NCBI GenBank assembly: GCA_951813555.1
Contig: OX638344.1
Coordinates: 372,001-436,000, forward strand
Direction of reading: 5' to 3'
Source of the DNA: an uncultured Acidimicrobiales bacterium
GTDB taxonomy: Bacteria; Actinomycetota; Acidimicrobiia; Acidimicrobiales; Bin134
DNA length: 64,000 nt
This document shows, piece after piece, positions 19,808-32,364 of this stretch (within the stretch, counting starts at the first letter, position 1; the number at the start of each line of letters is the position of its first letter). The translations under genes were made by a program, and so were the position numbers. The notes under the pieces were generated by a model. That model was not told where the DNA came from. It did no database searches and saw nothing but the letters and a program-made list of their open reading frames with translations.

Positions 19808-20455
19808 TCAGACCATGCGGCCGCCGAGGCGGTCGGTGCTGGGGTCGAAGGTGGGGAGTTGGTGCTGCACGGTGCCTTGGTGGGTGGCTAGCTCGTCGTA
19901 CACGATTGCCTCCACCTCTTCCCAGGAGGTGGCTCGGGGCGGGTCCAAGTCACGGTTGTAGGGCTGGTCGAAGACGATCACGGTTTGCCCTTCGGACCTG
20001 AGGGCCTCGATGTTGTGGGGAGCGTCTTCGATGTAGACGTGGGCGTCCACCGCGGTCTTGCCGCCCACGAAGCACAGATCCCGGTAGGGGATCTTGGCCT
20101 TGTCGAGCCATTCGGCAGTGTCGCCGGCGGCGATGGCGTGGTCCCAGTTGGTGTAGAGCCGGTGGGTGATGATGCGGATCCACACCCCGGCCTCTGACAA
20201 CCGCCACAGCGCCTTCGAGGCGCCGGGCATGGCCGGCATGTCGGCCAGCATCCGATGCTCTACCACGGCCTGACGGTGGTACTTCTCGAAATCCCCGTCC
20301 TCAAACCCCCACTCCTCGAAACCCCAGCTGCACTCCAGGGTGAGCGATTCCTCGGGCACGTTCTTTTCTTGGGCCACGATCTTGCGGAATGCCACAGTGT
20401 GCTGGGCGCACACTCCGTCGAGGTCGACGCCGAAGACAAAGGGTCCAGGGCTCAT
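19808..20455 (-). CDS. 5'(3')-deoxyribonucleotidase-like HAD protein (NT5C type)
   Basis: A 215-residue HAD-fold protein of the NT5C group, which dephosphorylates (deoxy)nucleoside monophosphates. Motif I FGVDLDGVCAQH (about residues 7-18) has the two Asp residues, IRIITHRLY is motif II, and YIEDAPHNIEAL holds the motif IV acidic pair. I start at 20455, where the ATG overlaps the stop of the preceding dehydrogenase half-gene (ATGA). It is the last gene of deoC-ALDH-ALDH, fitting a nucleotide salvage role. Some members of this group act on other phosphate esters, so the substrate is inferred from context. Confidence 0.82.
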   Translation of the reverse strand: MSPGPFVFGVDLDGVCAQHTVAFRKIVAQEKNVPEESLTLECSWGFEEWGFEDGDFEKYHRQAVVEHRMLADMPAMPGASKALWRLSEAGVWIRIITHRLYTNWDHAIAAGDTAEWLDKAKIPYRDLCFVGGKTAVDAHVYIEDAPHNIEALRSEGQTVIVFDQPYNRDLDPPRATSWEEVEAIVYDELATHQGTVQHQLPTFDPSTDRLGGRMV

Positions 20456-21327
20456 CTTCCCTTGGGGTGCCACACGGTCTTTGTCTCGCAGAAAGCATCG
20501 ATGAGGTAGGGACTCTGAGCAGCCTCATGAGCCCATTGCCGCTCGGCCGCCGAAGCGCTCACCACCCGGGTGATGGTGGCCGCCGCCTGTCGGGCGGCGT
20601 CCGCGTCCAGATCGGCATCGCAACCGGTGAGGTCCAGCGCATCCACGGCCCCATGGCCAGCCAGCGGGGGGACCAATTCGCCACGATGACCGGTGAGAAT
20701 GCTGACCACGCCGGAGGGTACGTCGCTCAGCGCCAACGTCTCGGCCAAGGTGATGGCCACTAGCGGGCAGCGCTCGGAAGCCAACACCACCGCGGTGTTG
20801 CCCGAAACGATCACCGGGGCCAACCGGGACACCAGCGGGATCAGGGGCGGCTCGTCGGGGGCCACGATCCCCACCACGCCGGTGGGCTCGGGCACGCTGA
20901 GGTTGAAATAGGGACCAGCCACCGGATTGACCCCTCCCAGCACGGTGGCGAATTTGTCGGCCCAGCCCGTGTACCACACCCAGCGGTCGATGGCGGCGGC
21001 GGTCTCTTCGGCGGCGGCCGCTTCGGTTTGACCGTCGCCCGCTCTGAGCACCTCGGCGCAGAACTCGTCCTTGCGGGACTCCATCACCTCGGCCACCCGG
21101 TACAAGATCTGGCCCCGGTTGTAGGCGGTCCGACCGGCCCAGCCCTCTTGAGCCGAGCGGGCCGCAGCCACTGCGTCGCGCACGTCTTTACGGGATCCCT
21201 GGACGGCATGGGCCAAGAGCTGGTCCCCGACCCCGACCACCGGATACGACCGACCCGACTCAGAACGCTCGAAGGCCCCGCCGATGAACTGCTTGTAGGT
21301 CTTGTTGACCGACAGCCGAATGCTCAT
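20452..21327 (-). CDS. ALDH16-like C-terminal domain protein, catalytically incomplete
   Basis: A 291-residue protein related to the first part of aldehyde dehydrogenases. A Rossmann-type half is present (VGIVAPDEPPLIPLVSRLAP, SGNTAVVLASERCPL, PSGVVSILTGHRGEL), but the protein stops where the catalytic domain should follow. In place of the ELGGK glutamate it has LDLTGCD, and there is no catalytic Cys. From memory of the family, PDEPPLIPLVSRLAP and the tail ETKTVWHPKGR match the second, inactive domain of ALDH16, normally fused to the active first domain. Here it is a separate gene whose ATG overlaps the active gene's stop (ATGA). It probably dimerises with that enzyme as a structural or regulatory part. 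Confidence 0.8.
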   Translation of the reverse strand: MSIRLSVNKTYKQFIGGAFERSESGRSYPVVGVGDQLLAHAVQGSRKDVRDAVAAARSAQEGWAGRTAYNRGQILYRVAEVMESRKDEFCAEVLRAGDGQTEAAAAEETAAAIDRWVWYTGWADKFATVLGGVNPVAGPYFNLSVPEPTGVVGIVAPDEPPLIPLVSRLAPVIVSGNTAVVLASERCPLVAITLAETLALSDVPSGVVSILTGHRGELVPPLAGHGAVDALDLTGCDADLDADAARQAAATITRVVSASAAERQWAHEAAQSPYLIDAFCETKTVWHPKGR

Positions 21328-22811
21328 ACCACCAACTCCACATAGGGCAGCAGACCGGCCCGGCCGCCTTCGCGGCCGTAGCCGCTCTCCCGGTAGCCGC
21401 CGAACGGGCTGGCCGGGTCGAACCGGTTGAAGGTGTTGGCCCACACCACGCCGGCCTGCATCCGGTCGGCCATCCACAAGATGCGCGATCCCTTCTCGGT
21501 CCAGATGCCGGCTGACAATCCATACGGCGTGTTGTTGGCCTTGGCCACCGCCTCCTCGGCGGTACGGAAGGTCAGCACCGACAGCACCGGCCCGAAAATC
21601 TCCTCCTGGGCGATGCGGTGGGCGGTGGACACGTTGGTGAACAGCGCCGGCGGGTGGAAGAAGCCGCTTGCGGGCAGCACGCACTCTGGCGTGTAGAGGT
21701 CAGCCCCCTCAGCCACCCCTGAGGCCACCAACTCAGTGATGCGGTCGAGCTGCGCCTGGGAGTTGATGGCCCCGATGTCGGTGTTCTTGTCCAGCGGGTC
21801 GCCCACCCGCAAGGTGTCCATGCGCCGCTGGAGCTTGCCCACCACGGTGTCGGCCACCGCCTCTTGCACCAAGAGGCGTGACCCGGCGCAGCACACTTGG
21901 CCGCCGTTGAAGTAGATCCCGTTGACGATGCCCTCGGTCACCTGGTCGAGGGCGGCGTCGTCGAACACGATGTTGGCCGCCTTGCCCCCCAACTCCAGGG
22001 TTAGGCGCTTGCCGGTGCCAGCCACCTGGGCGGCGATGGCCCGGCCCACCTCGGTGGATCCGGTGAAGGCCACTTTGTCTACGCCCGGATGGGCGACCAG
22101 AGCAGCCCCGGTGGCATCGTCGCCGGTGACGATGTTGACCACTCCAGGGGGAAGCCCGGCGTCGCGGAGCACCTCGGCCAACAGCAATGCAGTGAGTGGG
22201 GTGGTGGGCGCCGGTTTGATCACCGCGGTGTTGCCGCAGGCCAGCGCGGGGGCTAGTTTCCAGGCGGCCATCAGCAGGGGAAAGTTCCACGGGATGACTT
22301 GGGCGGCCACCCCCAGAGGGGCGGCCCCGCGGCCGCTGAAGGCGTAGTCGAGCTTGTCGGCCCACCCGGCGTAGTAAAAGAAGTGGGCCGCGGCCAGCGG
22401 GATGTCGAGATCGCGCGACTCCCGGATGGGCTTGCCCCCATCCATCGTCTCCAAAACGGCGAACTCCCGGGCCCGCTCTTGCAGCAGCCGGGCCACCCTG
22501 TACAGGTACTTGGCCCGTTCAGCGCCGGGCAGGTCGCGCCAGCCCCCCTCCCACGCGGCGCGGGCCGCGGCCACGGCCCGTTCCACATCGCCGACGTCGG
22601 CCACGCTGACCTCGGCCAGCGCCTCGCCGGTGGCGGGGTTCACGGTGGCAGCCATCCGACCGGCCGCCGGTTCCACCATCTCGCCCCCTATGAACAGGCC
22701 GTACTGCGAAGCCAGGCGAACCGGGCCGACCGATTCGGGGGCAGGCGCGTATTCCAGGCTGAAGCCACCAACTGGCTCCACCTCGTGCCTCGGAGTGGGA
22801 CGGTCAGTCAA
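21324..22811 (-). CDS. Aldehyde dehydrogenase, active half of a split ALDH16-like pair
   Basis: A 495-residue NAD(P)-dependent aldehyde dehydrogenase. The fold motifs are complete: IPWNFPLLMAAWKLAPAL, FTGSTEVG, the catalytic Glu273 in LELGGK and the catalytic Cys307 in GQVCCAGSR. The start is a TTG at 22811 that overlaps deoC by eight bases; GGGAGG lies nine bases upstream and no other start fits. Downstream of DeoC it most likely oxidises the acetaldehyde released from deoxyribose 5-phosphate to acetate. The neighbouring inactive half-gene and the deoC linkage both point to the ALDH16 type. A broader aldehyde range is possible. Confidence 0.93.
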   Translation of the reverse strand: MTDRPTPRHEVEPVGGFSLEYAPAPESVGPVRLASQYGLFIGGEMVEPAAGRMAATVNPATGEALAEVSVADVGDVERAVAAARAAWEGGWRDLPGAERAKYLYRVARLLQERAREFAVLETMDGGKPIRESRDLDIPLAAAHFFYYAGWADKLDYAFSGRGAAPLGVAAQVIPWNFPLLMAAWKLAPALACGNTAVIKPAPTTPLTALLLAEVLRDAGLPPGVVNIVTGDDATGAALVAHPGVDKVAFTGSTEVGRAIAAQVAGTGKRLTLELGGKAANIVFDDAALDQVTEGIVNGIYFNGGQVCCAGSRLLVQEAVADTVVGKLQRRMDTLRVGDPLDKNTDIGAINSQAQLDRITELVASGVAEGADLYTPECVLPASGFFHPPALFTNVSTAHRIAQEEIFGPVLSVLTFRTAEEAVAKANNTPYGLSAGIWTEKGSRILWMADRMQAGVVWANTFNRFDPASPFGGYRESGYGREGGRAGLLPYVELVV

Positions 22812-29645: not shown

Positions 29646-31613
29646 CTACACCAAATCGGGATCGCAGATGATCTCGACGAGGGCGGGGCCGGGGTGGGTG
29701 AGGGCGGTTTGGAGGGCTTCGTCGAGGTGGTCGGGAGCGGTGACTCGAAGGCCGAGGGCGCCGCAGAGGTTGGCGTAAGCTGCAAAGTCGGGGTTGTGGA
29801 GGGTGGTTTGCCACACGTCCCAGCGGCCGGCCCGCTGCTCCTTGGAGATCTTTCCCAGCTGGGAGTTGTTCACCAGCACATGGGTGATGTCCATGCCGTA
29901 CTTCACCGCGGTGGTCAGCTCCATGGCGTACTGGCCGAACCCGCCGTCGCCGCTGACGCTGATGATCGGGTGGCGGTCCCCCACTGCAGCCCACGCTCCC
30001 ATGGCCGCCGGGAAGCCGAAGCCGATCGAGCCCAGGTAGCCCGACATGAGCACTGATTGGGCTTGGGTCTCGAAATACCGCCCAAAGGAGTAGGTGTTGT
30101 TGCCCACGTCCACCGCGATCGCCGCATCGGGCGGGCACAGCCGGCTCAGCGAGTCGAATACCGCGGCAGAGTTGACCCCTCGGCCCTGGTCATCGGCCAG
30201 CCGGGACGCCTTCTCCTGCCGCCAGATGGCCCACCGCTCAGCTACCTCGGCCCGATGGTCGCCGCACGAAGCCCTACCGGTCAGCCGCTCGGCCAGCGCT
30301 CGGGCGGTCACGCCGACGTGGCCCAACACCGGCACGTCCACCGGGTGGAACCGGCCCAGCGCCATCGGGTCGTAGTCAACTTGCACGATGGGCTTGTAGG
30401 AGGCGATGCCAGTGTGGTTGGAGAAAGACGCCCCAAAAGCTACGATCAAATCGCTCTCGTTCATGAACCAGCTGGCAATGGGAGTCCCCGAACGGCCCAT
30501 CACTCCACAGCCCAGCGGGTGGTGGTCGCTGATCAGCCCCTTGGCCTTGAATGTGGTGGCCACCGGCGCACCCAACTGCTCGGCCAGCCCCACGATCTCG
30601 ACTGTGTCGAAGCGGGCCCCCGCCCCCAGCACGAATAGCGGTCGCTTGGCGGCCGAGATGCGGGCCACCGCGGCGTCCAACGCCTCGGGTGAAGGGGGCA
30701 TCTCGGGGGACACCAGCCTCCCCTCGGGGCTGCTGGCCACTGCGCCGTCGGCCACCGGCTGCACCTGCACCTCGTCGGGCAGCACCAACAGGGCTACGTC
30801 GCGCTGCACCAGCGCGGTCTTGCAGGCCACGCTGGCGAGCTCGGCATGGTCCGACCGGGCCGATACGGTCTGGTGGTAAGCGGCCACGTCGGCAAACGCC
30901 CCCTCCAGGTCCACATCTTGAAATGCGCCCCGACCTCGAACCGACGACGGCACCTGGCCGCACAGGGCCAGCACCGGGGCCCGATCCACCTTGGCGTCGT
31001 ACAGCCCGGTCATCAGATTGGTAGACCCCGGCCCGGCGATGGCGAAGCACGCGGCCAGCTCGCCGGTGAGCTTCCCGTAGGCGGAGGCTGCGAACGAAGC
31101 CGCCCCCTCGTGGCGAATGCCGAAAAAGCGCAAATCGCCCCGCTGCTCGGCCTCCCGCAGCGCGTCGGCGAACCCCAGGTTGGAGTGGCCCACCATCCCG
31201 AACACCACCCGTACGCCCCAGTTCACCAAGGTCTCGACCATCACATCCGAAACCGTGCGCACTCGGACTGCCTCGGCGGGCAGCCTCACGTATACACCGT
31301 CGTCCCGCTCTTGCGCCGGGTAGCAGGCCGGGGCGTCGTCGAACCCCTCCGGAGGAGATCCGTCGAGGGGGTTGTAGTCGTAGCCGTGCCACGGGCACCG
31401 AAGCCAACCATTCTCAATCGATCCCTCCCCCAGCGGCCCGCCCTGATGAGGACAGCGGTTGTCCAAGGCACCGAAAGCACCCTGGTAACGGGAGACGGCC
31501 AAGCTGTGGCGACCCACGGTGACCGTGCGAACCCGTCCCTCAGGCAACTCACCGGACTCGAGGATCTTGTGCCAGCCGCCGGATTGTGCCTCGTCTGTGC
31601 TCTTTTGATCCAT
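29646..31613 (-). CDS. Rieske [2Fe-2S] domain fused to a ThDP-dependent enzyme
   Basis: A 655-residue two-part protein. Residues about 14-115 are a Rieske ferredoxin domain: CPHQGG (Cys54, His56) and CPWHGYD (Cys73, His76) give the four ligands. From about 120 a full acetolactate-synthase-like enzyme follows. It has the ThDP-activating Glu in IRHEGAASFAASAYGKLTG, a central domain (RPLFVLGAGA...), and the cofactor motif GDGGFGQ...NN near the C-terminus. It would be a cytoplasmic decarboxylase, ligase or oxidase-type ThDP enzyme with a built-in electron-transfer centre; the substrate is unknown. The ATG at 31613 has TAGGGT seven bases upstream. It diverges from the peroxiredoxin gene. Confidence 0.88.
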   Translation of the reverse strand: MDQKSTDEAQSGGWHKILESGELPEGRVRTVTVGRHSLAVSRYQGAFGALDNRCPHQGGPLGEGSIENGWLRCPWHGYDYNPLDGSPPEGFDDAPACYPAQERDDGVYVRLPAEAVRVRTVSDVMVETLVNWGVRVVFGMVGHSNLGFADALREAEQRGDLRFFGIRHEGAASFAASAYGKLTGELAACFAIAGPGSTNLMTGLYDAKVDRAPVLALCGQVPSSVRGRGAFQDVDLEGAFADVAAYHQTVSARSDHAELASVACKTALVQRDVALLVLPDEVQVQPVADGAVASSPEGRLVSPEMPPSPEALDAAVARISAAKRPLFVLGAGARFDTVEIVGLAEQLGAPVATTFKAKGLISDHHPLGCGVMGRSGTPIASWFMNESDLIVAFGASFSNHTGIASYKPIVQVDYDPMALGRFHPVDVPVLGHVGVTARALAERLTGRASCGDHRAEVAERWAIWRQEKASRLADDQGRGVNSAAVFDSLSRLCPPDAAIAVDVGNNTYSFGRYFETQAQSVLMSGYLGSIGFGFPAAMGAWAAVGDRHPIISVSGDGGFGQYAMELTTAVKYGMDITHVLVNNSQLGKISKEQRAGRWDVWQTTLHNPDFAAYANLCGALGLRVTAPDHLDEALQTALTHPGPALVEIICDPDLV

Positions 31614-31620
31614 CACTGGA

Positions 31621-31734: not shown

Positions 31735-32364
31735 ATGGCTATTCGACTGGGCGACACCGCCCCTGATTTCACCGCCGACACCACTGAGGGCACCATCTCT
31801 TTCCACGAATGGAAGGGGGACTCATGGGCAGTTCTCTTCTCCCACCCCAAGGACTTTACCCCGGTATGCACCACCGAGCTGGGCTACACCGCCCGGCTGG
31901 CCGAGGAGTTCGCGGCCCGCAATGTGAAGGTCATCGGCCTGTCGTGCGACACGGTGGACGACCACGTGTCCTGGTCGCAGGACATCGAGGACACCCAGGG
32001 CATCCGTCCCAACTTCCCGATGATCGGCGACGCCGACCGCACAGTGGCCGATCTCTACGACATGATCCACCCCAACGCCAGCGACACTATGACGGTGCGC
32101 TCGGTGTTCGTAATCGGGCCCGACAACACGGTCAAGCTCACCATCACCTATCCGGCCAGCACTGGGCGAAATTTCGACGAGGTGCTGCGGGTTATCGACT
32201 CGCTCCAGCTCACCGCCACCAAGAAGGTGGCCACCCCGGTGAACTGGCAGCAGGGCGACGACGTGATCATCGTGCCCGCCCTCTCCAATGAAGAGGCCGC
32301 GGCGCTGTTCCCCGACGGTTGGGACGAGCAAAAGGCCTATCTTCGTGTAGTCTCCCAGCCATAA
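31735..32364 (+). CDS. 1-Cys peroxiredoxin (Prx6 type)
   Basis: A 209-residue peroxiredoxin that reduces hydrogen peroxide and organic peroxides. The peroxidatic site is SHPKDFTPVCTTELG with Cys45, Thr42 and Pro43; the conserved Arg sits in TVRSVFVIGPD. There is no resolving Cys in the usual two-Cys C-terminal position (VCP). Together with the long C-terminal extension (WQQGDDVIIVP...FPDGW) this identifies the Prx6/1-Cys class. AAGGAG precedes the ATG. It diverges from a gene carrying an oxygen-sensitive Rieske cluster, so protection from oxidants may be a shared theme. Confidence 0.95.
   Translation: MAIRLGDTAPDFTADTTEGTISFHEWKGDSWAVLFSHPKDFTPVCTTELGYTARLAEEFAARNVKVIGLSCDTVDDHVSWSQDIEDTQGIRPNFPMIGDADRTVADLYDMIHPNASDTMTVRSVFVIGPDNTVKLTITYPASTGRNFDEVLRVIDSLQLTATKKVATPVNWQQGDDVIIVPALSNEEAAALFPDGWDEQKAYLRVVSQP

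Follow-up and report, generated by a model that had tools for sequence, protein, structure and literature searches.

A Rieske domain fused to a pyruvate-oxidase-like ThDP enzyme, a candidate exchangeable one-electron carrier in a proposed pair of redox enzymes

Gene architecture at the locus

The window (the whole stretch of DNA analyzed, 64,000 nucleotides) comes from the genome of an uncultured Acidimicrobiales bacterium that consists of one 3.8-Mb contig. Its minus strand contains an open reading frame of 656 amino acids without an internal stop (positions 29646 to 31616), with a GTG at 31616 and an ATG at 31613; the gene was taken from the ATG (29646 to 31613, stop at 29646 to 29648), with the GTG as an alternative start. 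Using Pfam, a Rieske [2Fe-2S] domain was identified at residues 15 to 87 (31356 to 31574, minus strand; PF00355, E value of 2.7e-17, 62.9 bits against a gathering cutoff of 20.3), with the ligand pairs C55-P-H57 and C74-P-W-H77. Three domains of a ThDP enzyme follow on the same strand. TPP_enzyme_N (residues 121 to 236, positions 30909 to 31256; PF02776, 9e-34) contains the catalytic Glu E170 within RHE, the pair F232-Q233, and GHSNLG at 143 to 148, all invariant residues. The nucleotide/FAD-type TPP_enzyme_M (residues 314 to 441, positions 30294 to 30677; PF00205, 9e-31) has GxGxR at 331 to 335 and GRSG at 374 to 377, and TPP_enzyme_C (residues 503 to 649, positions 29670 to 30110; PF02775, 9e-35) has GDG at 556 to 558, N584, and the stretch K589-I-S-K592-E593-Q594. 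The N, M, and C domains, the catalytic Glu, and the GDG-N Mg/ThDP motif place the protein in the ThDP superfamily. An AlphaFold model covering both the Rieske and the ThDP parts had a pLDDT of 92 and a pTM of 0.91. The original prediction, that Rieske ligands and a complete ThDP enzyme lie in one frame, was thus upheld by the uninterrupted reading frame and the Pfam matches; the strand, which it had left out, is minus.

Elsewhere in the window, two overlapping reading frames on the minus strand (20452 to 22811), adjoining deoC, match aldehyde dehydrogenases. One of them (20452 to 21684) matches just the N-terminal half of the aldehyde dehydrogenase profiles, from its residue 131, and may be truncated or frameshifted.

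Conservation and distribution of the fusion

In a scan of a species-genome collection, at least 572 stretches encoding a relative were identified, and in the best 80 of these, which were kept, all 80 matches extended from the Rieske domain onward. These 80 and relatives from a further search gave an alignment of 90 distinct fused sequences, including that of the window, in which the gene is kept at full length and the other proteins share approximately 54 to 93% identity with the window protein. Both ligand pairs are retained in all 90 (C55, P56, H57, and Q58; C74, P75, W76, and H77), so the Rieske ligands are not replaced in close homologs. Equally invariant are the ThDP and active-site residues E170, D557, and N584, the middle-domain residues G331, G333, R335, and R375, and K589, K592, E593, and Q594 in the C domain; GHSNLG, GRSG, and GKI-S/T-KEQ form the signature of the Rieske-ThDP clade. 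Among 296 genomes of the window's class, 54 of the 56 matches over the E value threshold of 1e-90 began at or before residue 19 of the query, and the remaining two were partial matches in short open frames.

The fusion was found in Actinomycetota (mostly Acidimicrobiia), Cyanobacteriota, Planctomycetota, Acidobacteriota, Myxococcota, Gemmatimonadota, Balneolota, Rhodothermota, Kiritimatiellota, Poribacteria, KSB1, and Pseudomonadota. It is also present at full length on five plasmids, four from haloarchaea and one from Mycobacteroides abscessus subsp. bolletii 50594, which carry the same Rieske and ThDP motifs (domains were checked in two of the five). An assembly artifact or an accident of frame is ruled out by the single-contig genome, the recovery of 90 different full-length sequences across many phyla, and the plasmid copies. 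Hosts with named, probably cultured strains include Haloferax larsenii, Halorubrum salinarum, Leptothoe, Xenococcus, and Sulfidibacter corallicola.

Relation of the ThDP part to characterized enzymes

The ThDP part had been described as acetolactate-synthase-type, which is broadly right, but its nearest characterized relatives by sequence are pyruvate oxidases and pyruvate:quinone oxidoreductases (PoxB, LpPOX, and PQO). The best NCBIfam profile is likewise pyruvate oxidase, ahead of acetolactate synthase, with all scores far below the family cutoffs: 377 bits against 742 for NF006377 and 295 against 638 for TIGR02720 (both pyruvate oxidase), and 282 against 538 for TIGR00118 (acetolactate synthase). 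The fold of the AlphaFold model matches acetohydroxyacid synthase (AHAS), LpPOX, PoxB, and PQO, with TM scores from 0.7 (by query) to 0.9 (by target).

With PoxB, LpPOX, and PQO, the fusion shares the three-domain ThDP fold, the catalytic Glu, the GDG...N motif, an equivalent of LpPOX E483, and an F-Q pair corresponding to LpPOX F121-Q122. It differs from them in its identity of only about 26 to 28% in structural alignment, in the added N-terminal Rieske domain, and at the position of LpPOX F479, a residue that sits by the ThDP/FAD site. This position aligns with K589, which is Lys in 90 of 90 sequences and throughout the Rieske clade. Because of this replacement, pyruvate-oxidase chemistry cannot be assumed, and the invariant lysine suggests a substrate that is not simply pyruvate. 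Judged by its sequence, the fusion would work most like pyruvate oxidase, yet by two tested features, family score and the F479 position, it is not a member of that family. The middle domain and its GxGxR motif are suggestive of bound FAD.

AHAS has the ThDP fold and the nucleotide-binding middle domain in common with the fusion, and its FAD is structural only, with no redox role. As so close a structural match, and given the replacement of F479 by Lys, it raises the alternative that the Rieske cluster serves no electron transfer at all and is instead a redox or oxygen sensor, or a structural or assembly element of a nonoxidative ThDP lyase or ligase. We regard such a role as unlikely: the sequence profiles put the fusion nearer pyruvate oxidase than AHAS, and the exchange of carriers described below also speaks against it. 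AHAS itself lies outside the tree clade of the fusion, lacks a Rieske domain, and gives lower profile scores.

A second Rieske fusion as conserved neighbor

When neighboring genes were clustered, the outstanding conserved neighbor was a second Rieske fusion, in which the Rieske domain is joined to the Glu_synthase domain, the FMN/[3Fe-4S] core of a glutamate-synthase-like (GltS) protein. It adjoins the Rieske-ThDP gene in 30 of the 85 loci scanned, with haloarchaeal loci among them. Its core domain matches PF01645 (E value of 8e-87), and a C-x5-C-x4-C motif is visible in the copy examined (P0002); in this protein of 559 amino acids only the Rieske and Glu_synthase domains were found, and a glutamine amidotransferase domain was not. 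Rieske-GltS occurs in 27 of 34 fusion-bearing genomes, mostly from phyla other than that of the window. Five of the seven without it are cyanobacteria, and the partner is missing from most cyanobacterial members.

Of the 296 genomes from the class to which the window belongs, 55 encode the ThDP fusion, 44 encode the GltS fusion, and 32 encode both, where 8.2 would be expected (Fisher test, 1.7e-18, kinship ignored). Counted by genus, both were found in 26 against 9.4 expected (6e-12, with phylogeny handled by genus collapsing alone). As the two genes lie within 10 kb on one contig in just 8 of the 32 genomes, this co-occurrence is not mere linkage. A search of the window's own genome found neither Rieske-GltS nor the ferric-reductase-Rieske protein described below, whereas a congener (G004) has Rieske-GltS unlinked to its ThDP fusion; with the partner absent, the electron acceptor in the window's organism must be a different one. 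In a tree of Rieske domains, those of the two enzymes form separate clades (ThDP, 97/97; GltS, 100/100), from which it follows that the two enzymes probably acquired their Rieske domains independently.

Exchange of carriers and the link to oxygen

The nearest relatives of the ThDP enzyme that lack a Rieske domain (L147 to L151; 36 to 38% identity) have an N-terminal rubredoxin in its place according to Pfam. In a tree of the ThDP part, the Rieske forms make up one clade (100/100), and Rieske and rubredoxin forms together make up another (99/97), outside which lie the carrier-less proteins sampled (nine, from Actinomycetota genomes and a few plasmids). The two forms thus belong to a common ThDP clade and hold their carrier at the same N-terminal place; they differ in the carrier itself, in the GKISKEQ active-site signature, which is replaced in the rubredoxin form, and in the host genomes, which in the latter case lack COX1. 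In one lineage, represented by two genomes of one genus (L150 and L151), the rubredoxin-ThDP gene overlaps a rubredoxin-Glu_synthase gene by 4 nucleotides.

The partner has been found with a third carrier as well. CDGSH-Glu_synthase proteins are encoded on one Vibrio and one Photobacterium plasmid and are nested within the Rieske-GltS clade (100/100). Fusion of CDGSH to the glutamate synthase FMN domain has been published as type 5 CISD (PMC3174974), an example from the partner's family of a joined 2Fe-2S domain and not a ThDP enzyme; in the parts of that article consulted, no Rieske or rubredoxin form of type 5 CISD is described. The carriers identified are therefore Rieske and rubredoxin for the ThDP enzyme and Rieske, rubredoxin, and CDGSH for the partner. 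Rubredoxin-like N termini were also seen on four further Glu_synthase-core proteins (L165, L167, L168, and L199), from genomes without COX1 and from a Monoglobus plasmid (L199), which suggests that the Glu_synthase family swaps carriers generally.

Separate gain of the same kind of carrier by two enzymes, together with its exchange for another, is difficult to account for if the domain does not carry electrons. Rieske and rubredoxin domains differ in fold and metal site and have chiefly one-electron transfer in common, so the replacement of one by the other, both among sister proteins and in the partner enzyme, argues against a sensing or structural role of the cluster.

COX1 (PF00115) was identified in 37 of 42 genomes with the Rieske type and in none of 10 with the rubredoxin type (Fisher test, 1.9e-7, with kinship ignored and some genomes incomplete). 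The link to oxygen is this association, of the Rieske form with heme-copper oxidase and of the rubredoxin form with its absence, and not a peroxiredoxin. The divergent 1-Cys-type peroxiredoxin of the window (31735 to 32364, plus strand; AhpC-TSA, E value of 1e-32) had been proposed to tie the fusion to oxygen stress. Across the 85 loci scanned, it adjoins the fusion only in close kin of the window (L028 to L031), with one further copy 3.4 kb away in L058; being essentially confined to the window's genus, it did not hold up as a general feature, was rejected as a functional partner, and is not counted in the conserved module. Its presence in the window and close kin, together with pyruvate oxidase as the best NCBIfam match (though below the cutoff), would fit an oxidase that converts O2 to H2O2 as LpPOX does, with the peroxiredoxin clearing the peroxide. 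This appears very improbable, as the neighbor is not conserved in the other loci, a flavoenzyme that reduces O2 has no need of a Rieske domain, and the rubredoxin sister forms occur in genomes without heme-copper oxidase.

Electrons might also flow the other way, with the Rieske domain as the donor for a reductive or oxygen-activating reaction of the enzyme at ThDP/FAD, much as Rieske ferredoxins deliver electrons to Rieske oxygenases. The closest solved Rieske sequences are indeed components of oxygenases, such as the ferredoxins CarAc and toluene-4-monooxygenase protein C, and a flavodoxin/FMN-reductase-like gene lies near the fusion in cyanobacteria, one acidimicrobial genome, and the mycobacterial plasmid. 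However, relatives whose genomes lack heme-copper oxidase have rubredoxin at this position, which argues against an obligatory O2-activating role, and no ThDP enzyme of this fold is known to need an electron donor; we consider this direction of flow improbable.

Proposed electron route and two-enzyme module

The reading that we favor, at a probability of roughly 0.6, is that the fusion is a soluble pyruvate-oxidase-like ThDP enzyme from which the electrons of the enamine would leave singly through the built-in N-terminal iron carrier. A 2-oxo acid (or dicarbonyl) would add to ThDP and be decarboxylated or cleaved, and the enamine would then be oxidized, probably by way of a middle-domain FAD, which may stand between ThDP and the cluster. 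The Rieske domain would accept single electrons and pass them to an external acceptor, the pool of which may be common with, or lead to, the Rieske-GltS partner; in some lineages it may also be tied to a ferric-reductase-like membrane protein with its own Rieske domain. That the nearest solved and structural relatives (PoxB, LpPOX, PQO, and AHAS) act on 2-oxo acids was counted in favor of this route. The link of ThDP oxidation to a one-electron carrier, as originally predicted, is the best reading because the carrier domain is fixed and the closest relatives have rubredoxin at the same position; oxidative decarboxylation, the other half of that prediction, stays a proposal.

The N-terminal domain most likely serves a redox module of two enzymes as an exchangeable one-electron carrier. 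More tentatively, a ThDP oxidase and an FMN/[3Fe-4S] GltS-like enzyme could make up this module, which would be widespread and so far undescribed, with carriers gained independently and exchanged together with life style, Rieske going with aerobic respiration and rubredoxin with the absence of heme-copper oxidase. Between the two enzymes, the electrons of 2-oxo-acid oxidation may be used for a reductive, possibly aminating, reaction; alternatively, both enzymes may deliver to one acceptor.

The known ThDP enzymes that oxidize 2-oxo acids give up their electrons to flavin, lipoamide, or ferredoxin-type [4Fe-4S] clusters. If the proposal is true, a built-in Rieske domain would be a novel route for electrons out of ThDP chemistry, probably at a higher potential than ferredoxins. 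In this respect the fusion would resemble the 2-oxoacid:ferredoxin oxidoreductases, in which ThDP oxidation is coupled to one-electron iron-sulfur carriers; those enzymes use [4Fe-4S] clusters, depend on CoA, and have another domain arrangement, and neither the Pfam matches of the fusion nor its best PDB matches included any of them. The exchange of Rieske for rubredoxin in nature, seen in both the enzyme and its partner, offers a direct handle on how oxidoreductases are refitted for oxygen.

The domains and folds are already known; searches of the open-access literature turned up no publication on either the fusion or the gene pair. Vitamin B2 catabolism (PMC12746152) was rejected as a published match, as the ThDP enzyme and the Rieske oxygenase of that pathway are not joined in one protein. 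The plasmid copies are annotated merely as "thiamine pyrophosphate-binding protein," and a recurring pathway has been overlooked because of such naming.

Other neighboring genes

In some phyla, a ferric-reductase-like transmembrane protein with a C-terminal Rieske domain is encoded next to Rieske-ThDP (L084, 4509 to 5567; L092, 6179 to 7222), accompanied by small membrane or exported proteins and, in L084, by Rieske-GltS as well. In the Rieske tree, the domain of the ThDP enzyme is nearer to that of this protein than to that of GltS. As an obligatory third component the protein was rejected, being found in only 14 of the 60 fusion-bearing genomes searched, with no copy in the 26 genomes of L028 to L053. 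No general third component was found among the neighbors, as antiporters, DUF5996, and flavodoxin-like genes each recur in subsets only.

A DUF5996-like protein is encoded beside Rieske-ThDP or Rieske-GltS in approximately 15 loci (for example, L097, 7150 to 7986, and L086, 3775 to 4605); no mention of DUF5996 was found in the open-access literature searched. Cation:proton antiporters, which fall into three or more sequence groups, lie near the fusion in L037, L051, L052, L072, L075, L089, L090, L097, L153, and L155, and a reading as Kef-like electrophile defense was set aside because the neighbors are inconsistent. FMN-reductase/flavodoxin-like proteins are encoded near the fusion, with no Rieske-GltS nearby, in L153 (6154 to 6870), L055, L059, L064, L069, and L101; those of the mycobacterial plasmid, the one acidimicrobial genome, and the cyanobacteria are 58 to 74% identical.
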